Assembly (NCBI RefSeq): GCF_007741495.1
Contig: NZ_CP036262.1
Location: 4,712,001-4,776,000, forward strand
Direction: 5' to 3'
Length of the DNA: 64,000 nt
Source of the DNA: Roseimaritima multifibrata
GTDB taxonomy: Bacteria > Planctomycetota > Planctomycetia > Pirellulales > Pirellulaceae
Within the stretch, counting starts at the first letter, position 1; every line of letters begins with the position of its first letter. Made by a program: the position numbers and the translations under genes. The notes under the pieces are model-generated. The model was not told the DNA's origin, searched no databases, and worked only from the letters and a program-made list of their open reading frames with translations. Positions 29,050 to 52,146 of the stretch are shown one piece after another.

Positions 29050-29870
29050 CTTGCGAGGTTTATTAAACGACCGCGCATCCCAACTGCAATGAAGACAACC
29101 GCGAAAGACGCAAAAAACGCGAAAAGACAATGCCCCATTTCAACAAGAGAGAATGGAGCAGCTGAAAGCAGTCACCTCCGCAAAAGCCAAAAACCAAAAC
29201 AGCCTGATCCATAATCCCTTTCGCGTATTTCGTGTCTTTCGCGGTTTATTAATCGACCGCGCATCCCGACTGCAGTTAGGACAACCGCGAAAAACACGAA
29301 ATACGCGAAAAGACAATGCCCGTGTTCAACAAGGAAGAATGCGGCGGCCGAGCGCACTTCCGCCAAAGAGAAAAACAAAGCAGCCTGATCCATAATCTCT
29401 TTCGCGTATTTTGCGTCTTTCGCGGTTTATTAATCGACCGCGCATCCCGACTGCAGTTAGGACAACCGCGAAAGACACGAAATACGCGAAAAGACAATGC
29501 CCGTTTTCAACAAGGAAAATTGGATCGGCCGATCGCACGCACTTCCGCAAAAGCTAAAAACCAAAACAGCCTGCCCCATAATCCCTTTCGCGTATTTTGC
29601 GTATTTCGCGGTTTATTAATCGACCGCGCATCCCAACTGCAGTTAGGACAACCGCGAAAAACACGAAATACGCGAAAAGAGAATGCCCGTTTTCAACAAG
29701 GAAAATTGGATCGGCCGATCGCACGCCCTTCCGCAAAAGCTAAAAACCAAAACAGCCTGCCCCATAATCCCTTTCGCGTATTTTGCGTATTTCGCGGTTT
29801 ATTAATCGACCGCGCATCTCGACTTCATTTGAGACTACCGCGCGAGAAGCAAAAAACGCGGAAAGACAAT
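29050..29870. repeat. Tandem array A, ~186-bp units (about 4.5 copies)
   Basis: The landmark CGACCGCGCATCC recurs at 29068, 29254, 29435, 29621 and 29807, spacings 186, 181, 186 and 186 bp. Each unit has two complementary arms of about 30 bp (left CTTTCGCGTATTTTGCGTAT..., right ...AAACACGAAATACGCGAAAAG) around a ~30-base loop that holds the landmark, and a spacer of variable unique sequence. Frames open across the array on both strands (the units are mostly divisible by 3) but no start, codon bias or known domain supports a protein. Array B at 31,455-32,965 shares the same core. Confidence 0.85.
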
Positions 29871-29989
29871 GCCCTATCGATTCTTTCGCGGTTGATGATC
29901 CAACAACTCTGCCAAAGGATTGCTGAGGTGCAATCGATTCGTTTTTTTGCGGTTGCTCTAATTCGAAGACGCTTCTTACGACTTCACGA

Positions 29990-30973
29990 TTAGGCCAATT
30001 CTTTGGCTTCGCTGAAGGTTAGCAAGCGGTTTGCTAGGGGGTCCCAGAGTTTCAGTCGCATGCACTGAATGATGTCCGGGACGTGCAGCGTGGTGACGAC
30101 GGGCGATTGTAGTTCCTGGATGCCGGCCATTGCTTCGGGCAACCGGTAAAACGGAATCTTGGCATTCAAATGATGCACATGGTGATAGCCAATGTTCCCA
30201 GTACACCAACGCATGATCACGCCCATCTTCATAAAGCTGGACGACTGCAGCGCGGCGTAGACGTGATCCCATTCGCTCCCCTCACGACGAATCATGCCGG
30301 GGAAGTTGTGCTGCGCATAAAACAAATAAGAGCCTATGCACGTGATGATCGCCATCGGCAAGAGCATTCCCAGCAGCAACGCCTGAATCGAAACAAAACC
30401 AATGGCAACAGCAATACTGATATGCAACACGATCGCCAGTGCCCCGTCAACGTTCTTCCTGGGGTTCATCAAGAACGCATGCAGACACATCTCCCAAAAG
30501 AAGATGGTCACGTAAGCCAGGAGGAGTGTGAGTGGATGTCGCGACACGGCATAGTGAAAACGCTGCAACGGGGTAGCCTGAGCGTAATCGGAGGTACTCA
30601 TCACAGGAAACGTCCCCAACGTCGTCCCAAAATGCCTTGCATTGTTCTTGTGATGTTCGTCGTGGGAATGCTTCCAGATCGACGGAGGACTGAGCACCAA
30701 CGTGCCATACAGTCGCAAGATGCCACCGGCAACACGCGAGCCGCTCAGAATCGTTCCATGCATGTAATCATGGTAGATAATGAACAACCGGATCAACACA
30801 AGGCTGGCCAGGACGCTACTGGTGACACAGACAAACCAGGGCAAGGGAAGGCAGGCGATAGCCAGAAAAGTGACCGCCAGAGTCAACGTCGACCAGAGGT
30901 GCCACCAACTTTTCCAACGCTGCTCGGATGCGTACTGCCGACTGGCAATCAATAGTTCTTTTCCGCTCCGCAT
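29990..30973 (-). CDS. Fatty acid desaturase
   Basis: 327 residues. Membrane-bound di-iron desaturase with all three histidine boxes: IYHDYMHGTIL (H-x3-H), KHSHDEHHKNN (H-x2-H-x2-HH region) and GYHHVHHLNAKIPFYRLPEA. Hydrophobic stretches lie at ~35-65, ~155-215. Family enzymes introduce double bonds into lipid acyl chains, or act as hydroxylases/ketolases on carotenoids; acyl-lipid desaturation is the simplest reading. The gene sits between repeat arrays A and B, ending ~120 bp from the last unit of array A. Confidence 0.92.
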   Translation of the reverse strand: MRSGKELLIASRQYASEQRWKSWWHLWSTLTLAVTFLAIACLPLPWFVCVTSSVLASLVLIRLFIIYHDYMHGTILSGSRVAGGILRLYGTLVLSPPSIWKHSHDEHHKNNARHFGTTLGTFPVMSTSDYAQATPLQRFHYAVSRHPLTLLLAYVTIFFWEMCLHAFLMNPRKNVDGALAIVLHISIAVAIGFVSIQALLLGMLLPMAIITCIGSYLFYAQHNFPGMIRREGSEWDHVYAALQSSSFMKMGVIMRWCTGNIGYHHVHHLNAKIPFYRLPEAMAGIQELQSPVVTTLHVPDIIQCMRLKLWDPLANRLLTFSEAKELA

Positions 30974-31454: not shown

Positions 31455-32965
31455 ATCAATCCAGCCGCGCATCCCAGCTGCAAATAGAACAACCGCGAAA
31501 AACGCAAAAGACGCGAAAAGACAATGCACCATTTCAGCAGGGAAGATTGCTTTCGTGTGTAGGACCTGGAACCGCGAAAACACATGGGGACCGCCTTGTC
31601 CGGAATCCCTTTCGCGTCTTTCGTGTTTTTCGCGGTTGTTCATTCGACCGCGCATCCCAACTGCATTTAGAACAACCGCGAAAAACGCAAAAGACGCGAA
31701 AAGACAATGCACCGTTTCAGCAGGGAAGATTGCTTTCGTGTGCAGAACCTAGAACCGCGAAATCGCATTGGGCCCACCTTGTCCGTAATCCCTTTCGCGT
31801 CTTTCGTGTTTTTCGCGGTTGTTCATCCGACCGCGCATCCCAACTGCATTCAGAACGACCGCGAAAAACGCAAAAGACGCGAAAAGACAATGCACCATTT
31901 CAACAAGGAAGATTGCTTTCGTGTGTAGAACCTAGAACCGCGAAATCGCATTGGGACCGCCTTGTCCGGAATCCCTTTCGCGTATTTTGCGTCTTTCGCG
32001 GTTGTTCATCCGACCGCGCATCCCAACTGCATTCAGAACGACCGCGAAAAACGCAAAAGACGCGAAAAGGCAATGCACCGTTTCAGCAGGGAAGATTGCT
32101 TTCGTGTGTAGGACCTGGAACCGCGAAACCACATTGGGACCACCTTGTCCGTAATCCCTTTCGCGTATTTCGTGTCTTTCGCGGTTGTTCATTCGACCGC
32201 GCATCCCAACTGGATTCAGAACAACCGGGAAAAACGCAAAAGACGCGAAAAGACAATGCACCATTTCAGCAGGGAAGATTGCTTTCGTGTGTAGAACCTA
32301 GAACTTCGAAATCGCATCTGGACCACCTTGTCCGTAATCCCTTTCGCGTATTTCGTGTCTTTCGCGGTTGTTCAGTCGACCGCGCATCCCAACTGCATTC
32401 AGAACAACCGCGAAAAACGCAAAAGACGCGAAAAGACAATGCACCGTTTCAGCAGGGAAGATTGCTTTCGTGTGCAGAACCTAGAACCGCGAAATCGCAT
32501 TGGGCCCACCTTGTCCGTAATCCCTTTCGCGTATTTCGTGTCTTTCGCGGTGGTTCATTCGACCGCGCATCCCAACTGCCTTTAGAACAACCGCGAAAAA
32601 CGCAAAAGACGCGAAAAGACAATGCACCATTTCAGTAGGGAAGATTGCTTTCGTGTGCAGCACTTGGAACCGCGAAACCACATGGGGACCACCTTGTCCG
32701 GAATCCCTTTCGCGTATTTCGCGTCTTTCGCGGTTGTTCATTCGACCGCGCATCCCAACTGCATTTAGAACAACCGCGAAAAACGCAAAAGACGCGAAAA
32801 GACAATGCACCATTTCAGCAAGGAAAATTGCTTTCGTGTGCAGAACTTGGAACCGCGAAACCACATTGAGACCGCCTTGTCCGTAATCCCTTTCGCGTAT
32901 TTCGCGTCTTTCGCGGTTGTTCATTCGACCGCGCATCCCAACTGCATTTAGAACGACCGCGTGAA
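31455..32965. repeat. Tandem array B, 183-bp units, nine landmarks
   Basis: The landmark (C/A)G(A/C)CCGCGCATCCCA is found at ~31463, 31646, 31828, 32011, 32194, 32377, 32560, 32743 and 32926: seven of the eight intervals are 183 bp and one is 182. Each unit contains left arm CTTTCGCGTATTTCGTGTC... and right arm ...AACGCAAAAGACGCGAAAAG (inverted repeat of ~31 bp), then a less conserved part with ATTGCTTTCGTGTG. Because 183 is divisible by 3, several frames on both strands stay open for hundreds of codons; this is a consequence of periodicity and not evidence of translation. The array ends a few bases before the integrase remnant. Confidence 0.9.
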
Positions 32966-32970
32966 GACCA

Positions 32971-33267
32971 ATGCTTTGGTACGGCGGAAAATTGCTGTGG
33001 GTGACTCCGCTCCTTGAGAAAAGACTTCCATGGGCTTGGTGGGCGGAGCTACTGGAGGCGTTTTCTGGTTACGTTGCCGGTGCTTGGCTTGGCTATTTTT
33101 GGGGGTGGCTGCCGGACTTTCTTTGCAGGTGCTCCGTGACTACTGGATCGCCCGTGCGCCGACGGCTACGTAAGGTCACACGAAACCCAAAACAGGACTG
33201 CGCACAATCGGCGGTGCCATTGCTGCTTATTTCTCGAGCCTTTGGAGCCCGAACGGGCGAGCAAGAC
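32971..33267 (+). pseudogene. Decayed C-terminus of a tyrosine integrase
   Basis: Translation of 33007-33120 gives LEKRLPWAWWAELLEAFSGYVAGAWLGY, which aligns with the element's own integrase (WEKTFINLRSTRRTELQEAFPGHVVDAWLGH). After a one-base insertion near 33120 the match continues in the next frame (LQVLRDYWIARA against LQVTSDHWTAGA), passes an in-frame TAA at 33171, and then runs up to the 71-bp attachment repeat. The catalytic His is Tyr here and the Tyr nucleophile is lost. The DNA match over ~110 bases is roughly two thirds identical. It is most simply the remnant of a related element that was integrated in tandem at the same tRNA. Confidence 0.8.
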
Positions 33268-33338
33268 GCTCAAAAGCCAATAAAAAAGCCTCCAAAACAC
33301 TAGGGATTGGAGGCTCAGTAGCCCAACCAGGACTCGAA
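33268..33338. repeat. attL, left 71-bp attachment repeat
   Basis: Identical to 45492-45562 over 71 bases; the bases immediately outside differ (C33267 vs T45491, G33339 vs C45563). It contains the copy of the tRNA terminator hairpin and the last ~20 bases of the tRNA 3' end (T-arm part). Confidence 0.92.
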
Positions 33339-33515
33339 GAACCCGCTGAAACGCTAGTAGATTCGGACATTGTCCCCGATGGTGGTAACACCGGTGGTAA
33401 CAGTGACGACCAGACCGATCAATTCTTGCCAACTTGGCACAAACTGAACCGGTTGCAGCGAGAGAAGGTACTGGCAGTGATGAGGGGAATGATAAGCCAG
33501 GGGGTGGAACAGTGA
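33339..33515 (+). other. Alternative integrase C-terminus used only in the circular element
   Basis: Joining the repeat copies as in excision continues the integrase frame from codon 444 into 33339 for exactly 58 more codons (EPAETLVDSDIVPDGG ... LPTWHKLNRLQ ... MISQGVEQ) to TGA at 33513-33515, giving a 502-residue protein. In the integrated form the frame ends after 21 codons antisense to the tRNA. The stop overlaps the GTG of the next gene (GTGA). The second half is amphipathic and resembles the natural C-terminal helix of planctomycete integrases. Confidence 0.78.
33427..33439. repeat. Element palindrome copy 1 (TGCCAACTTGGCA)
   Basis: Thirteen-base core of the element's recurrent palindrome, here inside the codons of the alternative integrase tail (flank TT on the left instead of GT). 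Confidence 0.75.
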
Positions 33516-33887: not shown

Positions 33888-35138
33888 GTGGCAGCATTGA
33901 ACAGAAACAGAAGCTCAGCGTCCAACGGCTCCAGAACTGTCGATTGGGTATTGCTAGGAATCCTTTCGGTACTCGGTCTAACAGCCTTGGGATGCTGTGG
34001 GCTGTTGTTTGTCCTGTTCTCTTTCTCGGGGACTCCGCATCGTCATGTCCGACACAGCGTTGTCGATTCCACGATTGCGACAGAACCAGACGCCATGGTG
34101 TCAGAGCTTCCTGCCATCGAAAGCAATGCTTCCAGTGACGCAGGTTCAGAGACACCTGAACTTGACGAGATCCTGGAGACAGTCGAGCTTGCTGAGGCTC
34201 TGGATGCTGCCAAATCGATGGAAGCCCTCGCCGTTGCTGAAGTCGCGGAGGACTCCGATCAGCAGCAGTCTATGTTTGCGACCGCAACAGCCCCCTCAGC
34301 GGAAGCTCTCGCAGAAAGCGGGTTATCGCTGCCTAAGCAGGGCAACAGGACCTGGATAGATAAGGCGGGCATTCATTCAGTCATTGCGACCCTGGGGAAT
34401 GTCAACTCAACGCATGTTCAACTGGAACGAGCTGACAGCGGGAAAAACATTGCGTTACCAATCGAGACGCTCAGCGAACGAGATCAGGTTTATGTCGCCT
34501 ACGCTATAGCACCAAGAATTGACCCTGAAGCAGAAGTCGTGCTCGGCAAGGTAAACCGGGTCATGGACGGGGACACGATCCAGATCGATGCGATAGAGGG
34601 AGATTCTAGGACGATCCGGCTAGTCGGGATTGATGCTCCTGAAAGTAGTCAGAGGTTCGGAACAGCCGCCAAGGTATGGCTGACGCAGCAAGTTTCCGGC
34701 AAGACGCTTCGCGTAGAGATTACAGAGAAGGACCGTTACGGACGTTTCCTGGGCAATGTGTACGTCGTCGACGATGGCGATCGCTGGCTGAACCGTGAGA
34801 TTATCCTTGCAGGTCTCGCATGGCACTATGTGGACTACAGCAAGGATATCCGCCTAGCCCAGGCCCAACAGGTTGCACGAGGGGAGAACGCAGGGTTATG
34901 GCAGGACGCCCGTAAGGTTGCCCCTTGGGACTTCCGAAATGGGGAAAGGATTGAGACAGCGATCCCTGTTAATGCCGAATCGATCCGGACAACGGACATT
35001 CAGGTTTACATCACACAGTACGGATCTAAATATCACTCGGATGGGTGCAAGTATCTGGCCAAATCGAGACAGCCGATCCCCCTGAGCCGAGCCAAATCAG
35101 CTTACGAACCTTGTTCAATATGCAAACCGCCGAGGTAA
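33888..35138 (+). CDS. Membrane-anchored thermonuclease-family protein with SHD1 domain
   Basis: 416 residues. An N-terminal membrane helix (WVLLGILSVLGLTALGCCGLLFVLFSF, ~22-47) is followed by an acidic linker, then an SHD1 domain (~145-200: RTWIDKAGIHSVIATLGN ... VQLERADSGKNIALPIETLSERDQVYV), which is common in planctomycetes. The staphylococcal nuclease domain (~210-340) keeps the catalytic set: DGDTIQI, RLVGIDAPE, DRYGRFLGNVYV and GLAWHYVDYSKD. The C-terminus has a YHSDGCKYLAKS ... YEPCSICKP motif, a Cys/His module often appended to such nucleases. It would face the periplasm and may degrade entering DNA. It is an element cargo gene. Confidence 0.87.
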   Translation: MAALNRNRSSASNGSRTVDWVLLGILSVLGLTALGCCGLLFVLFSFSGTPHRHVRHSVVDSTIATEPDAMVSELPAIESNASSDAGSETPELDEILETVELAEALDAAKSMEALAVAEVAEDSDQQQSMFATATAPSAEALAESGLSLPKQGNRTWIDKAGIHSVIATLGNVNSTHVQLERADSGKNIALPIETLSERDQVYVAYAIAPRIDPEAEVVLGKVNRVMDGDTIQIDAIEGDSRTIRLVGIDAPESSQRFGTAAKVWLTQQVSGKTLRVEITEKDRYGRFLGNVYVVDDGDRWLNREIILAGLAWHYVDYSKDIRLAQAQQVARGENAGLWQDARKVAPWDFRNGERIETAIPVNAESIRTTDIQVYITQYGSKYHSDGCKYLAKSRQPIPLSRAKSAYEPCSICKPPR

Positions 35139-35320: not shown

Positions 35321-36277
35321 TTATGCCTCTTCAATTTCTAGCGTCACCTTAGGGGTTCGTCTGTATTTTCGCGACACAAGTGTGCCTGAGCTAAACAATG
35401 TTCCGCCACGAACACTCGCCTTGATCTCATACCGATCATGCACTGCGATACCTAACGGGCTCTCGTAACTTGCGAGCAGATAAAATCCTTGGCCTTCCTC
35501 TGCGCCGCGAAATTTGACCAACGACGTCATCAAGACAGTCTGTCCAGGCACGACGATTGATCTCGTCCCGTTGTCGTCCATGTGTTCCCATCGGACATAA
35601 AAATTGAACGCCGCCACCCCCCCAACATTTGTAAGTTTCGTTGAATATTTTAGCACTGAAGGAGCGTCAAACCCTTCACTGTCACAGTCGAACTGAATGT
35701 CAAAAATGGGAAATTTGTTATTCTCAATAGCTTCCACTAGATGGTGCGGCAATAGTTTTACTTTGAAGTACCTGCTTGCTGCTGCCTTAAGGTCGAGCGA
35801 ATTCGAAAACGTAAAGAACCAATTTGATTTATCGCCCGCAGCAAGCTGTGAATGCTCCTCAAGGAGCTCGAAAAGCCCAAGATCCTTTTGCTCTACCCAA
35901 GCAAGTGAAACGGAACCTTCCTTGCCATTTTTTTTCCAGACGGCGTAGTCCGCATCGAGCCGATCGCGAATGAATAGGTGGACGGGAATGCCGCGTTCAA
36001 CTGCCCGGCGATATTCGAGATGGGTCGCGGAAACATTTTCGAAACCAAACTTCCCCAATCGTGGTCCGTACCTACGGTCCAATATAAGAATCACTTCGTC
36101 ACAAGACGCGACATTGGACAGACAAGTCTCAATTGAATTCGCATCCGATTGGACACGGAAATCAGAGAGCTTGTCATCAGAAAGCACAGGTGTCACGCCA
36201 AGATTGCGCAATTGCTGACTAAGCTCTGCTCGCACGTCTATTAAATCGTAAACCGTTGAGCTAACGAACACTCTCAT
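35321..36277 (-). CDS. DUF4062-domain protein (TIR/NTPase-associated type)
   Basis: 318 residues. Residues 1-~130 match DUF4062: MRVFVSSTVYDLIDVRAELSQQLRNLGVTPVLSDD, CDEVILILDRRYGPRLG, SATHLEYRRAVERGIPVHLFIRD. In family proteins this domain (TIR/STIR-like fold) lies in front of NTPases or effectors of antiviral systems. Here residues ~130-318 have no NTPase motif; a beta-rich tail (KYSTKLTNVGGVAAFNFYVRWEH; YEIKASVRGGTLFSSGTLVSRKYRR) ends the protein, possibly a binding module. Next to it on the same strand is a four-helix membrane protein. Lower GC than the chromosome. A two-gene effector/sensor pair is inferred, not shown. Confidence 0.8.
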   Translation of the reverse strand: MRVFVSSTVYDLIDVRAELSQQLRNLGVTPVLSDDKLSDFRVQSDANSIETCLSNVASCDEVILILDRRYGPRLGKFGFENVSATHLEYRRAVERGIPVHLFIRDRLDADYAVWKKNGKEGSVSLAWVEQKDLGLFELLEEHSQLAAGDKSNWFFTFSNSLDLKAAASRYFKVKLLPHHLVEAIENNKFPIFDIQFDCDSEGFDAPSVLKYSTKLTNVGGVAAFNFYVRWEHMDDNGTRSIVVPGQTVLMTSLVKFRGAEEGQGFYLLASYESPLGIAVHDRYEIKASVRGGTLFSSGTLVSRKYRRTPKVTLEIEEA

Positions 36278-38647: not shown

Positions 38648-40567
38648 TCAGTCTGCAAGTATTTCCAAAATTTTATCTCTCAATCGAGGTTTGATCATTT
38701 GCGCACCGGCCTGCAAGAGGTGATGTTCATCGAGATAAAAAACTTGTTTTCCGTCCAGGACTAAAGCTCCAGCGTCGTGAGCATACAGATCGTAAGTCGG
38801 TAGATACTCAACATGGTCATAAGACGCAGCCAACTCTCGAACTAACTTCCGGCCGACATCATCTTTTTCTAGTGAGTACGGCATAAAATGCTGAATTCCA
38901 TCCTGGGGCTCGACTCCCTTAGCGGCAAGCAATTGCATCACATTTTGATTATGGACATCGAGCAAAGTTGGTGGATCTTCAATCAACAATACCCGTGTTC
39001 CTTGTGCTTTAAGAATAGCTAGCAGGGCATGCGATTGAGATTGCTCGGCTCTCTTTCCCCACCAATCAGCGATGATAACCAAGCGGGGGTTCCATTTTTC
39101 TATATAAGCAAGCCTCGCTTCACTGTATCGCAGGAGTTCTTCCTTCGAGAGCTGTCGGGTTGACTTACCAAGCGTGGGAGGAATATGAAAGAACGCACTC
39201 ACCCCGCCCATCGCAAAGCATCTTGTGGAGATTCCTTCCTCTCGTGCGACCGACACGATTGCATCGCTCCACATAACACCGTGAGAATCCCCTAGAACGA
39301 TAATTTCAGGATCCTCTGACTTTCCCCGAACACCAACTCCACCGGTATAGTACGCGTCAGATGTGTTCCCAGGCCTGACGTGGACCGTTTTGCATGCTAG
39401 CGTCGAGGGGAGGATACTTCCAGGACGTGGGTCAACGTCATAAGTGACCCAACGTGCCTCAGCAAAATTTGACGTATCGTAAAGCCGTAAGGTAGTCGCC
39501 ATCATTGAGGCTATGACCACCAACAACATACTGGCGGCTAGTACGACCGGAACAGTCTCCCTTCTTCGCCGCGTTGGTTTCTCAACGAAGTGATAGGTTC
39601 CAAGAGCAAAAAAGTAGGTTCCAACAACCAGAACTATCCTTTCGAAAGGGCCAAGCCATCCAAACCCTAGATGCGGTGCGAGTACTAGAATCGGCCAATG
39701 CCAGAGGTAGAGTGAGTAAGATATCTTGCCAATGTGAACCACCGAGCGTTGAGACAGCAACACATTGCAGAGTCCAGTCTGCCCGAAAGCAATGATCAAT
39801 GCCGTTCCAACAACAGCTAACCCTAAGCCGCCGTTGAGTTTGTCAATGAAGAAATAAGAAGTGACGACCATTCCTAGACCAGCAACGGCGAAAATTCCGA
39901 AGTTTGAATTTTTAGGCGATTGCTTGTTAAGCGACACCGCCAGTAGACAGCCAGTACCAAGTTCCCAGACTCGGGTTGGCAATAAGTAAAACGTCGCATT
40001 CGGATAATCGTGCAATCCCCCAAGGAAAAGGACGAGACTGCCAATAGTTGCGGTCAAGATGCAGCCTTGAATCCACCTCGATCGCAACCGAAAAATCAGC
40101 CACATTGCGAGGGGAAAGAACAGATAGAACTGCTCTTCTAAGGACAGTGACCAAGCATGGAGAAACGGAGATTCTTCAGCGGCGGTTCCCCAGTAGTCTC
40201 CTATGCTCTGCCAGAAATAAATATTTGCAAAGGACAACAGGGCTGCTATGCCTTGCTGACCAATAGCCTGCTGGTCAGGCCGGAATACAAAGACATAGGA
40301 AACGGCAAGCGTGACGGCAGTCACGAAGGTCATCGCAGGCAAGATTCGTCGGATCCGGCGTGCCCAAAAGTCACGAAACGAAAACGTACCTTGGTCAAGT
40401 TCCCTCTTGATGATCGAAGTAATCAGGAAACCGGAGATTACGAAAAAGACGTCAACACCGATGTAGCCGCCAGGAATCCAACTCAGGCCTAAGTGAAAAA
40501 GAATGACAGGTATAACAGCAAATGCTCGAAGACCGTCAATTTCCGGTCGATATCCAATTCCCGCCAT
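38648..40567 (-). CDS. OafA/YrhL-type O-acyltransferase with C-terminal SGNH domain
   Basis: 639 residues. Residues 1-~370 form the ten-helix acyltransferase-3 domain: YRPEIDGLRAFAVIPVILFHLG, YIGVDVFFVISGFLIT, FWARRIRRILPAM and SLSLEEQFYLFFPLAM are diagnostic. Residues ~400-639 form an SGNH domain (EIIVLGDSHGVMWSDAI; D-x-x-H in YLDEHHLLQ). This fusion O-acetylates surface polysaccharide or peptidoglycan in the periplasm. As element cargo it could alter the cell surface, for example a phage receptor; that is inference. Low GC compared with the chromosome. Confidence 0.92.
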   Translation of the reverse strand: MAGIGYRPEIDGLRAFAVIPVILFHLGLSWIPGGYIGVDVFFVISGFLITSIIKRELDQGTFSFRDFWARRIRRILPAMTFVTAVTLAVSYVFVFRPDQQAIGQQGIAALLSFANIYFWQSIGDYWGTAAEESPFLHAWSLSLEEQFYLFFPLAMWLIFRLRSRWIQGCILTATIGSLVLFLGGLHDYPNATFYLLPTRVWELGTGCLLAVSLNKQSPKNSNFGIFAVAGLGMVVTSYFFIDKLNGGLGLAVVGTALIIAFGQTGLCNVLLSQRSVVHIGKISYSLYLWHWPILVLAPHLGFGWLGPFERIVLVVGTYFFALGTYHFVEKPTRRRRETVPVVLAASMLLVVIASMMATTLRLYDTSNFAEARWVTYDVDPRPGSILPSTLACKTVHVRPGNTSDAYYTGGVGVRGKSEDPEIIVLGDSHGVMWSDAIVSVAREEGISTRCFAMGGVSAFFHIPPTLGKSTRQLSKEELLRYSEARLAYIEKWNPRLVIIADWWGKRAEQSQSHALLAILKAQGTRVLLIEDPPTLLDVHNQNVMQLLAAKGVEPQDGIQHFMPYSLEKDDVGRKLVRELAASYDHVEYLPTYDLYAHDAGALVLDGKQVFYLDEHHLLQAGAQMIKPRLRDKILEILAD

Positions 40568-41580: not shown

Positions 41581-41692
41581 CAGGTGTTCGGCTGTTCGGA
41601 CGATTTGCCCGAACGCCGAGAAAATATTCTCAATTTGTCGGAACAAGGAAAACACTGACGGCGAGTGGCGACAGGAGGCGACAGAACGACTG

Positions 41693-41735
41693 TTCGGGCA
41701 GCAGTGCCCGAACGCTGGGACATGGGTATACCCAT
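41693..41735. promoter_or_regulatory. Palindromic operator-like sites before excisionase-like gene
   Basis: TTCGGGCA-GCAG-TGCCCGAA (41693-41712) is a perfect 8-bp stem with a 4-base loop, and ATGGGTATACCCAT (41722-41735) is a perfect 14-bp palindrome, 25 bp before the ATG at 41761. A diverged copy of the first (TTCGG...CCCGAA) lies near 41593-41613. The arrangement suits autoregulation by the HTH proteins downstream. Confidence 0.5.
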
Positions 41736-41760
41736 TACCTATCACTCCCAGAGGACTCTC

Positions 41761-42015
41761 ATGTCTATCTCAAGCCCGTTGCTACTTTCCGTGGCCGATG
41801 CGGCCAAGATGCTCGCCACGAGCGAACGCTCACTCTTTCGCCTGACTGCTCCGCGTGGTCCCATACCACCAATCCGCATTGGGCGATCTGTCCGTTACTC
41901 CGTTGATGACCTTCAAGCCTATGTCGACAGCCGTCGAAGTGCTGCAACTAGGACTCAGCAGGTTGCCGAACAGACTGGTTTGATGGTCGGCACCGAGATG
42001 CAGGAGGGCCGCTAA
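41761..42015 (+). CDS. Excisionase-like HTH protein 1
   Basis: 84 residues from ATG 41761 (GAGGA eight bases upstream). A MerR-like/HTH_17 domain occupies residues 8-55: LSVADAAKMLATSERSLFRLTAPRGPIPPIRIGRSVRYSVDDLQAYVDSRR is the standard recombination-directionality pattern. It stands one base apart from the next HTH gene. Role: probably control of excision and/or transcription of the replication module. Confidence 0.82.
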   Translation: MSISSPLLLSVADAAKMLATSERSLFRLTAPRGPIPPIRIGRSVRYSVDDLQAYVDSRRSAATRTQQVAEQTGLMVGTEMQEGR

Positions 42016-44230: not shown

Positions 44231-45628
44231 ATGGCTTCACTGCACCAACAAAAGGGCGACCGGCCCGGCTGGAAGATCCGATGGAGGGATGCGGCTGGAA
44301 AACCGCAGGCACTTTGGCTTGGCAAGAAGAGTAAGCGGATTGCGGACCAGACTTTCGTAAACGTATCTGAGTTGCTGCGGGCACAGTCTGCGGGCATCCG
44401 ACCCGAAGCGTGGGCCGAAGCGTGGGCGAACGAAACCAAGGGACGACTGCGGTCCAATTTGGTTAAGCATGGTTTGGCGAAAGACGAAAACAGGAACTCC
44501 GATGCCGAGCGATTCCTGGAAGCGTTTATCGATGCCTACGTTGCGAAAAGAACCGACGTTACAAAGAGAACCAAAGACAACTACGCGCAGGCCAAGCGGT
44601 ACTTGGTGGAACACTTCGGAGCGGATCGGCAATTGCAAACGATCACCCCAGCGGATGCCGACCAGTGGCGGCGGTGGTTGCTCACCTACGCTGTTCGTCG
44701 CGACAAAGACGGCAAGCCCCTTAAGACCATGGCCCCTGCGACCGTAGCGAAACACGTTAAGCGGGCGCGGCTGTTATTCAACGAAGCGGTACGTGGACGA
44801 CTGATCGACTCAAGCCCCTTTGCAGCGGTCAAAATCGATTCCGAATCCAATTCAGACCGTCACCACTTTGTTGACCGAACGACGACAACCGCCGTCCTGG
44901 ACGCCTGCCCCGATCACGATTGGCGGCTGATCTTTGCTTTGACCCGATTCGCTGGTATGCGTTGCCCCTCTGAGGTGACCCGCCTGCGATGGGCGGACGT
45001 ACTTTGGGATTCCGGTCGACTGCGGATCGATTCGACAAAGACCGGTTTGCGGTTCTGTCCGATCTTTCCTGAATTGCTACCGATCCTGGAAGCCGCCGCC
45101 GCTGACCGCGAAAACGACTTGGTGATGAACCGTCGGCTGATTGCTGGCTATGCGGTAGACGCCAATCTAGGAACGCAGTTTCACCGGATCGTTGAGAACG
45201 CCGGTTTGGTCCCGTGGGAAAAAACCTTTATTAATCTGCGATCCACCCGCCGAACGGAATTGCAAGAAGCGTTCCCCGGTCACGTTGTCGATGCGTGGCT
45301 AGGTCATTCTTCAAAAGTAGCTGCCGAACACTATCTGCAAGTGACGAGCGATCACTGGACGGCAGGGGCAACGAAGCAAACCGGGGGACAGATTCAGCCC
45401 GAAACCGCCCAGCAGGAGCGCCGTGGTAACGCCGGTGGTAACATACCCGCTTATTCCCAAGCATTTGGGGCCAATTCGGACGCCGAAACATGCTCAAAAG
45501 CCAATAAAAAAGCCTCCAAAACACTAGGGATTGGAGGCTCAGTAGCCCAACCAGGACTCGAACCTGGAACAACAGAACCAGAATCTGCCGTGTTGCCAAT
45601 TACACCATTGGGCCGCGTATTAAACTAA
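44231..45628 (+). CDS. int: Tyrosine recombinase (integrase) of the element
   Basis: 465 residues as integrated. N-terminal SAM-like core-binding domain (~95-195: FIDAYVAKRTDVTKRTKDNYAQAKRYLVEHFG...), catalytic domain from ~210. Catalytic residues: Arg near 244 (RFAGMRCPSEVTRLRW), Lys in STKTGLRF, Arg in FINLRSTRRTEL (the usual His of H-x-x-R is Asn, common in planctomycete relatives), His near 359 (WLGHSSK) and Tyr near 368 (AEHYLQV). Codons 421-444 are encoded by attR and the last 21 codons (PGTTEPESAVLPITPLGRVLN) are antisense to tRNA-Gln, so this C-terminus is a product of integration; the circular form would give 502 residues. Confidence 0.93.
   Translation: MASLHQQKGDRPGWKIRWRDAAGKPQALWLGKKSKRIADQTFVNVSELLRAQSAGIRPEAWAEAWANETKGRLRSNLVKHGLAKDENRNSDAERFLEAFIDAYVAKRTDVTKRTKDNYAQAKRYLVEHFGADRQLQTITPADADQWRRWLLTYAVRRDKDGKPLKTMAPATVAKHVKRARLLFNEAVRGRLIDSSPFAAVKIDSESNSDRHHFVDRTTTTAVLDACPDHDWRLIFALTRFAGMRCPSEVTRLRWADVLWDSGRLRIDSTKTGLRFCPIFPELLPILEAAAADRENDLVMNRRLIAGYAVDANLGTQFHRIVENAGLVPWEKTFINLRSTRRTELQEAFPGHVVDAWLGHSSKVAAEHYLQVTSDHWTAGATKQTGGQIQPETAQQERRGNAGGNIPAYSQAFGANSDAETCSKANKKASKTLGIGGSVAQPGLEPGTTEPESAVLPITPLGRVLN
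45492..45562. repeat. attR, right 71-bp attachment repeat
   Basis: Perfect copy of 33268-33338, overlapping the 3' end of tRNA-Gln and its terminator, and coding for integrase residues 421-444 on the plus strand. Confidence 0.92.
45505..45539 (-). terminator. Terminator of tRNA-Gln gene (inside attR)
   Basis: On the minus strand AGCCTCCAA (45531-45539 side) pairs with TTGGAGGCT (45511-45519 side), a 9-bp stem with 11-base loop, followed by six T. It starts a few bases after the tRNA and is duplicated in attL. Confidence 0.85.
45543..45614 (-). tRNA. tRNA-Gln (anticodon CTG)
   Basis: Cloverleaf on the minus strand, 72 nt: acceptor GGCCCAA/TTGGGCT (first pair G-T), D-arm GTGT-AATTGGCA-ACAC, anticodon stem GCAGA/TCTGT with loop TTCTGGT, so anticodon CTG (Gln), T-arm CCAGG-TTCGAGT-CCTGG. 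No encoded CCA. It is the target of the integrated element and remains intact. It reads antisense to the end of the integrase gene. Confidence 0.93.
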
Positions 45629-51624: not shown

Positions 51625-51630
51625 GCTTTT

Positions 51631-51763
51631 GGGAGTTGGGAGTTGGGAGTTGGGAGTTGGGAGTTGGGAGTTGGGAGTTGGGAGTTGGGAGTTGGGAGTT
51701 GGGAGTTGGGAGTTGGGAGTTGGGAGTTGGGAGTTGGGAGTTGGGAGTTGGGAGTTGGGAGTT
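51631..51763. repeat. 19-copy 7-bp satellite GGGAGTT
   Basis: Exactly 133 bases, 19 perfect copies of GGGAGTT, starting 7 bases after the stop of the phosphodiesterase gene. With one GGG per 7 bases the plus strand fits the pattern for G-quadruplexes. The open frame of Pro/Thr/Asn/Ser/Gln units on the minus strand is a by-product. Confidence 0.95.
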
Positions 51764-51802
51764 TACCGAGCGACAACGTCTATTCAGGAAACCGCACTCA
51801 CT

Positions 51803-52039
51803 CTTAGCGGAACGGCGCAAGCCGTCCGGCCTGCAGCTTTGAAAAACCATACTGCCCAGGACAGTGAACACCGCACTCACTCTTAGCGGAACGGCGCGAG
51901 CCGTCCGGCCTGCAGCTCTGAAAAACCAGACTGCTCAGAACAGTGAACACCGCACTCACTCTTAGCGGAACGGCGCAAGCCGTCCGGCCTGCAGCTTTGA
52001 AAAACCAGACTGCTCTATACGCTGGAAACCGCCCTCACT
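51803..52039. repeat. Three 79-bp tandem copies of a REP-like element
   Basis: CTTAGCGGAACGGCGC(A/G)AGCC begins at 51803, 51882 and 51961, each 79 bp apart. Each has the ACGGC-GNAA/GNGA-GCCGT hairpin followed by GGCCTGCAGCT(T/C)TGAAAAACCA and a short variable tail. They follow the G-rich satellite. Confidence 0.9.
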
Positions 52040-52146
52040 CTCAACAAAACGGCGCGATCTCGATACCATCCACTTTGCCATCTGCGGACGGATTTCCTTG
52101 CCAGTCGGCGTAAGGCGATCGGTAGATTCACCGTATTTTCGATGCG

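Follow-up and report, generated by a model that had tools for sequence, protein, structure and literature searches.

What left a broken piece of an integrase gene immediately outside an integrative element that carries an intact integrase of its own? The locus lies in the window, the 64,000-nucleotide stretch of DNA analyzed here, which spans positions 4712001-4776000 of a 7.2-Mb genome in a single contig. The window contains a 12.2-kb element (E2) bounded by two exact 71-bp repeats, and the broken gene, referred to below as the fossil, adjoins the left repeat (Table 1). The explanation that we favor, with a probability of about 85% for the whole of it, is that an earlier element (E1) and then E2 integrated at the same tRNA-Gln gene, that the integrase of E1 decayed, and that the att core of these elements is located within the integrase coding sequence.

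Table 1. Coordinates, within the window, of the features discussed
Feature	Position	Strand	Basis or remark
Array B, 8.2 copies of 183 bp	31465..32961	+	TRF; lies beyond the fossil, away from attL
Stretch between the 183-bp array and the fossil, 84 bp	32962..33045	.	Perhaps a degraded array unit
Integrase fossil, C-terminal part of the integrase of an earlier element	33046..33267	+	Frameshift-aware alignment
attL, 71-bp exact repeat	33268..33338	+	Repeat search and whole-genome search
Integrase tail at the left end of the element, EPAETL...GMISQGVEQ, stop 33513-33515	33339..33515	+	Frame continuous with the core
Excisionase-like DNA-binding gene of the present element	41665..42015	+	phrog_66, E 1.9e-09
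Present tyrosine integrase, 465 aa	44231..45628	+	PF00589, PF13102, phrog_1
attR, second copy of the 71-bp repeat	45492..45562	+	Repeat search and whole-genome search
tRNA-Gln (ctg), target gene	45542..45614	-	ARAGORN

The Element at tRNA-Gln

E2 has the organization of a tRNA-targeted integrative element, with a direct att repeat that contains the 3' end of the tRNA and an integrase adjoining one end. The integrase matches PF00589 at 33.3 bits and PF13102 at 29.6 bits, and its last codons are antisense to tRNA-Gln. Tyr368 is invariant among eight aligned family members, and the protein is a tyrosine recombinase with a C-terminal Tyr. In addition to the excisionase-like gene, E2 encodes an AAA_25 ATPase and cargo at 33888-35138, 35321-36277, and 38648-40567: an SNase protein that also has an SHD1 domain, a DUF4062 protein, and an acyltransferase-SGNH fusion protein. 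No relatives were found in plasmid and phage collections at E limits of 1e-20 and 1e-10. To the right of E2, a 7-bp unit, TTGGGAG, occurs in nineteen exact copies at 51629-51763, and a tandem repeat of 79 bp comes next at 51789-52055.

The attL repeat consists of 21 bp of the tRNA-Gln 3' end (33318-33338) and 50 bp (33268-33317) that, judged by eye, contain a hairpin and a T run on the minus strand resembling a tRNA terminator. Exact identity beyond the tRNA end thus extends over 50 bp in the window, compared with 0-4 bp in the other 30 elements of the survey described below, and is not predicted by a simple integration model. The identity could stem from gene conversion, from acquisition of the resident end by the element that came in, or from constraint on the terminator-like hairpin. 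In the stretch of G002 that was fetched, tRNA-Gln has no integrase, and the match to the repeat is limited to the 21 tRNA bases.

A Decayed Integrase outside attL

The intact integrase was compared with the DNA from 32962 to 33267, which excludes the 71-bp repeat, by frameshift-aware Smith-Waterman alignment. The alignment scores 118 and pairs residues 343-416 with positions 33046-33255, with 35 of 70 residues identical, two frameshifts, and one stop; a few unaligned codons follow up to the repeat. Maximum control scores are 43 for 300 dinucleotide shuffles of the DNA (mean 27.4, sd 3.8), 53 for 500 shuffles of the integrase protein (28 for the reversed protein), and 48 for 804 half-overlapping 306-bp segments from elsewhere in the window, on both strands. 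A genome search with the integrase independently matched the same place (4745102-4745377, a match that includes the repeat). The similarity in any single frame is short and must be joined across frameshifts, as chance in-frame matches without homology would be; however, a score of 118 against the maxima of three kinds of control refutes that explanation, to which we assign next to no probability. The homology of the fossil is confirmed, far above all controls.

The original prediction, a decayed integrase just outside attL, is therefore borne out, and pairwise alignment gives a similarity well above that of random in-frame matches, but several of its details need correction. The fossil had been placed from 33007 onward, with two frames joined by a one-base insertion near 33120. 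Homology is detectable only from about 33046 (a local DNA alignment of 32995-33046 scores 15, against a shuffle maximum of 20), and the frame changes instead at three places: one base is lost near 33097, and shifts follow near 33231 and, at the repeat junction, within about 33247-33270. The match to the C-terminus stands; the clean run of 90 residues expected from it does not, and about 74 residues plus those encoded by the repeat are found. DNA identity to the integrase is about 65% up to 33267 and 100% from 33268. The loss of the catalytic His and Tyr holds, with other residues at His/Asn position 359 and in place of Tyr368, and the Arg box (NLRSTRR) is missing too. Because these catalytic residues are not intact, the fossil is a pseudogene. 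The frame in which it enters the repeat is, as had been claimed, the one that continues into the tail at the left end of E2, and it is free of stops over 51 codons to the left of the core. Array B is indeed on the far side of the fossil, although not directly, as it ends 84 bp before the detectable homology.

Alignment of this 84-bp stretch with the array unit scores 30, which is not significant against a shuffle maximum of 32.5, and a continuation of array B into the fossil was rejected on that score. One unit of array B has 89 matches genome-wide, many of which are short matches to parts of the unit. Array B and a 186-bp array at 29057-29874 represent a repeat type that recurs at other places in the genome (near 3.39, 4.28, 4.33, 5.02, and 5.37 Mb, for example), and the stretches in common are about 30 bp.

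Origin of the Fossil

The best match of the fossil is the window's own integrase, both when the repeat is excluded (118 versus 79 for the next of 37 proteins) and when it is included (182 versus 97 for the next of 108 family integrases). This ranking, together with the identity of the adjoining 50 bp, would suit a fossil that is a duplicate of the end of the present integrase, produced by a tandem dimer or a local duplication and decayed after E2 arrived. We consider this origin unlikely. A fossil that is only about 65% identical sits beside a repeat that is 100% identical, and its differences from the integrase pile up at third positions (among 70 codons, 20 differ at position 1, 23 at position 2, and 39 at position 3; chi-square 7.6, 2 degrees of freedom, p about 0.02, hand calculation), unlike those of a fresh copy under neutral decay, with the caveat that the alignment was optimized on protein similarity and may inflate the third-position excess. 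Over the same stretch, the intact integrase of the sister species G001 differs from that of the window in 15, 10, and 30 of 75 codons. This comparison of codon positions suggests that the E1 integrase diverged under selection as a working gene and decayed later. E1 would therefore be a relative of E2 and not a recent duplicate of it.

The same distinction modifies a further part of the original prediction, in which a tandem copy had been deleted up to its integrase end. An earlier element is retained, but as a related element instead of a tandem copy, and its body was presumably lost by deletion, with decay as the alternative. A third copy of the 71-bp repeat, proposed as a further check, was not found in a search of the whole genome at E <= 0.001, which returned two copies only. 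No genes of the earlier element were recognized left of the fossil, and the window left of attL has no match in the fetched G001 or G002 loci. The gene at 29990-30973, which we take by recognition to be a desaturase, gave an empty return in G001-G003, in a search that is uninformative on absence.

Remnants in Related Elements

Loci for a survey of related elements were picked by hand, mostly as the best matches of integrase searches, and are not a random sample. Of 113 sources scanned, 112 have an integrase match (L045 has none), and in 92 of the 112 a tRNA is antisense to the integrase end; L038 is in both counts even though nothing but the antisense strand of tRNA-Gln is matched there, and partial genes such as L039 and L043 are included. 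The integrase frame stops inside the tRNA in 80 of the 92 tRNA-bearing loci, L038 among them; in most of the loci examined, the integrase as read from the chromosome thus finishes with an antisense-tRNA peptide.

Remnant scoring was limited to the 31 elements with an exact att run of at least 16 bp; a pilot on 52 loci, with runs of at least 15 bp, had given 13 elements. The 450 bp outside attL were scored against integrase C-termini, and 2250 windows from the same loci served as controls. A remnant is present outside attL in 7 of the 31 elements (L033, L049, L079, L085, L088, L094, and the window), with scores of 182-447, whereas the other 24 score at most 60 and the control windows at most 67, with none in the remnant range. 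The score of 182 for the window includes 50 repeat bases and is 118 without them. One remnant is unbroken (L088, reference residues 1-384), those of L033, L049, L085, and L094 are partial, and those of L079 and the window are decayed. A series from intact to shredded is that expected from successive insertion followed by loss. This recurrence, with the fitting place and orientation of the fossil, supports the prediction that tRNA-Gln was used for integration twice in succession.

The phase of the tail is open into the remnant in four of the seven (L033, L049, L094, and the window); it closes 3 codons left of the core in L085 and L088 and after 26 in L079. The remnant alignments of L085 and L088 do not reach attL and stop about 140-155 bp away from it. 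The remnants of these two elements belong to a subfamily other than that of the resident integrase, which ranks 91 and 96 of 108 as a match, and this too argues against duplication of a resident gene. L088 (G270:C3) has an apparently unbroken integrase at about 1131-2447, outside the attL of an element at tRNA-Asn. It is probably a tandem that has not decayed, and its frame at the core differs from the tail frame.

Recurrence in 7 of 31 elements could also mean that fragments outside attL are kept because they are useful, for instance, as an integrase-binding arm or as the source of a truncated integrase, rather than as passive relics, and some of them (L033 and L094) do retain the box-III and Tyr motif, and their frame stays open into the tail. 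This seems very improbable to us. The copy in the window is without the catalytic residues and contains a stop and shifts, that of L079 is decayed as well, 24 of the 31 elements have no clear remnant, and direct repeats flanking the core are no better within than between elements (mean 8.48 versus 8.35 of 11). Neither these direct repeats nor inverted ones (mean 8.19) were accepted as arm sites of the integrase; direct repeats reach at least 10 of 11 in 3 of 31 own and 3 of 60 cross-element comparisons, and single elements are suggestive.

G001, of the same genus, shows this arrangement at tRNA-Gln as well: the right flank of the tRNA gene is conserved, and an intact integrase, 74% identical to that of the window, adjoins the tRNA. 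The attL of this element is 5.6 kb away, and outside it is a C-terminal integrase fragment (L033), 58% identical over residues 307-443, which is in frame through the tRNA 3' end and core into the tail. Searches of Pfam and NCBIfam returned no family for this fragment with its tail. A fossil at the tRNA-Met element of G001 (L034/L145) was considered and not counted, with integrase scores of 36-50. Outside the attL of that element, at about 5376-5428 of L145, a terminator-like stretch is 80% identical over 54 bp to the repeat of the window; by eye, it adjoins what we take to be the end of a type I restriction protein. L042 and L047 are borderline and were not counted either: L042 scores 69 in the pilot and 60 in the main scoring, and its attL and attR agree at 43 of the 60 positions left of the tRNA end, whereas L047 scores 91 in the pilot, with L054 in the panel, and 45 with the fixed panel.

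Integrase Tails at the Left Ends of Elements

Counted from the core, the tail in the window is open for 62 codons in the integrase frame versus 9 and 7 in the other frames. The count was extended to the 29 elements whose integrase is open through the core (2 of the 31 were dropped). In 25 of these, an in-frame tail of at least 45 codons follows the attL core, compared with 8 and 5 in the two other frames, and the median lengths are 65 versus 12 and 15 codons. A W..L...R..hydrophobic motif occurs in 15 tails in the integrase frame and in none in either other frame. The in-frame tail is shorter than 45 codons in four elements, and that of L145 contains a stop. These sequences indicate a planctomycete integrase family in which the att core lies within the integrase reading frame. 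Because the core is in frame and a conserved tail continues past attL, integration appears to swap the C-terminus of the integrase.

Of the 25 long tails, 23 (all except L099 and L085) were used to build a profile, which was compared with 59 of 79 viral-contig loci, all but the last 20 of the list. The profile matches the C-terminus of 6 of the 59 integrases at 24.6-34.8 bits (five distinct sequences, as two are identical). All six are unsplit, each being one ORF, with a T-arm-like sequence between the catalytic part and the tail in five of them, and no tRNA gene was found in these six loci. Among the other 53 integrases, 5 have an adjacent tRNA and 48 have neither the tail nor an adjacent tRNA; many of the 48 are distant members whose integrase ends shortly beyond the catalytic Tyr.

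An AlphaFold model of the unsplit integrase of L148 (496 aa; mean pLDDT 74.7, pTM 0.47) shows a confident catalytic domain, a low-confidence stretch at residues 373-461, and helices at 456-474 and 477-492. Block means of pLDDT are 66-81 over residues 461-490 and lower at both ends. The T-arm-like core starts at about residue 426, within the low-confidence stretch. On the basis of this model, the family seems to place attP in linker codons, such that integration would trade a helical hairpin for an antisense-tRNA peptide.

Discussion

Our reconstruction of the locus starts from observed homology, position, recurrence, and in-frame tails, together with the unsplit genes in some other contigs; from these we infer the order of events, the removal of the E1 body by deletion, and any change in integrase activity. 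E1, with an integrase of the same family, would have integrated at the 3' end of tRNA-Gln such that its integrase gene adjoined the tRNA. E2 would later have integrated at the same 3' end, and the end of the E1 integrase would lie just outside the attL of E2 because E2 inserted between it and the tRNA. The body of E1 would then have been lost and its integrase reduced by decay to about 220 bp. That the fossil runs in phase through att into the tail of E2 would follow from the location of the core, which in this family belongs to the integrase gene. Before integration, the order in the element would be catalytic part, core, and tail. Upon integration, the tail would stay at the left end, and the integrase would gain codons antisense to the tRNA.

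We extend this scheme tentatively, at a little under even odds, to the proposal that a bacterial integrase family carries attP inside its own gene, at linker codons predicted to be disordered, that the enzyme forms differ, and that the fossils are former tandem junctions. Integration would remove the helical hairpin and add the antisense-tRNA peptide. Since the C-terminus would be exchanged at integration, the enzyme that integrates would differ from the enzyme that remains, and this difference could set the direction of recombination. The swap suggests a testable idea on how that direction is controlled. Upon tandem insertion with matching frames, the inner junction would re-form a full-length integrase, and fossils may be the leftovers of such junctions.

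The event recorded by the fossil is of a known kind. Integrative elements and genomic islands accrete in tandem at a single tRNA att site, with the newer element adjoining the tRNA and older remnants further out. Here, too, successive elements would have used the same tRNA 3' end. Unlike tandem accretion in general, only the integrase end survives, right at attL and in phase with the tail of the newer element. The fossil is a modest historical record, and tRNA sites are reoccupied often enough to leave remnants in 7 of the 31 elements. The self-overlapping att architecture is more notable. Among the open-access titles and abstract openings listed on attP within integrase genes, tandem tRNA islands, and planctomycete integrases, which include the repressor-based phage system discussed below, none describes the arrangement in bacteria, although absence from this literature is weak evidence.

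Leftover int fragments also record past integrations in archaeal SSV-type systems. These suicidal, or type I, integrases have the att site within the integrase gene, and integration separates the two parts, according to PMC8371274. The family in the window likewise has the att core inside the integrase reading frame; however, the core follows the catalytic Tyr, such that the catalytic domain stays whole and only the C-terminal tail would be exchanged. The host is bacterial, and the integrase of the window matches only PF00589 and PF13102 at E <= 0.001, unlike the SSV-type enzymes (PF16795, Phage_integr_3). PMC8371274 also states that only archaea have recombinases that disrupt the gene encoding them, a statement on which a bacterial integrase family with a C-terminus rewritten by integration would bear.

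A second parallel is the integration-dependent immunity of mycobacteriophage BPs, in which attP lies in a reading frame and integration alters the C-terminus of the product; the gene concerned encodes the repressor, which loses a degradation tag (PMC4557955). The two systems are alike in having attP inside a reading frame whose product would change its C-terminus upon integration. They differ in that the gene here is the integrase itself and integration would remove a predicted helical hairpin.
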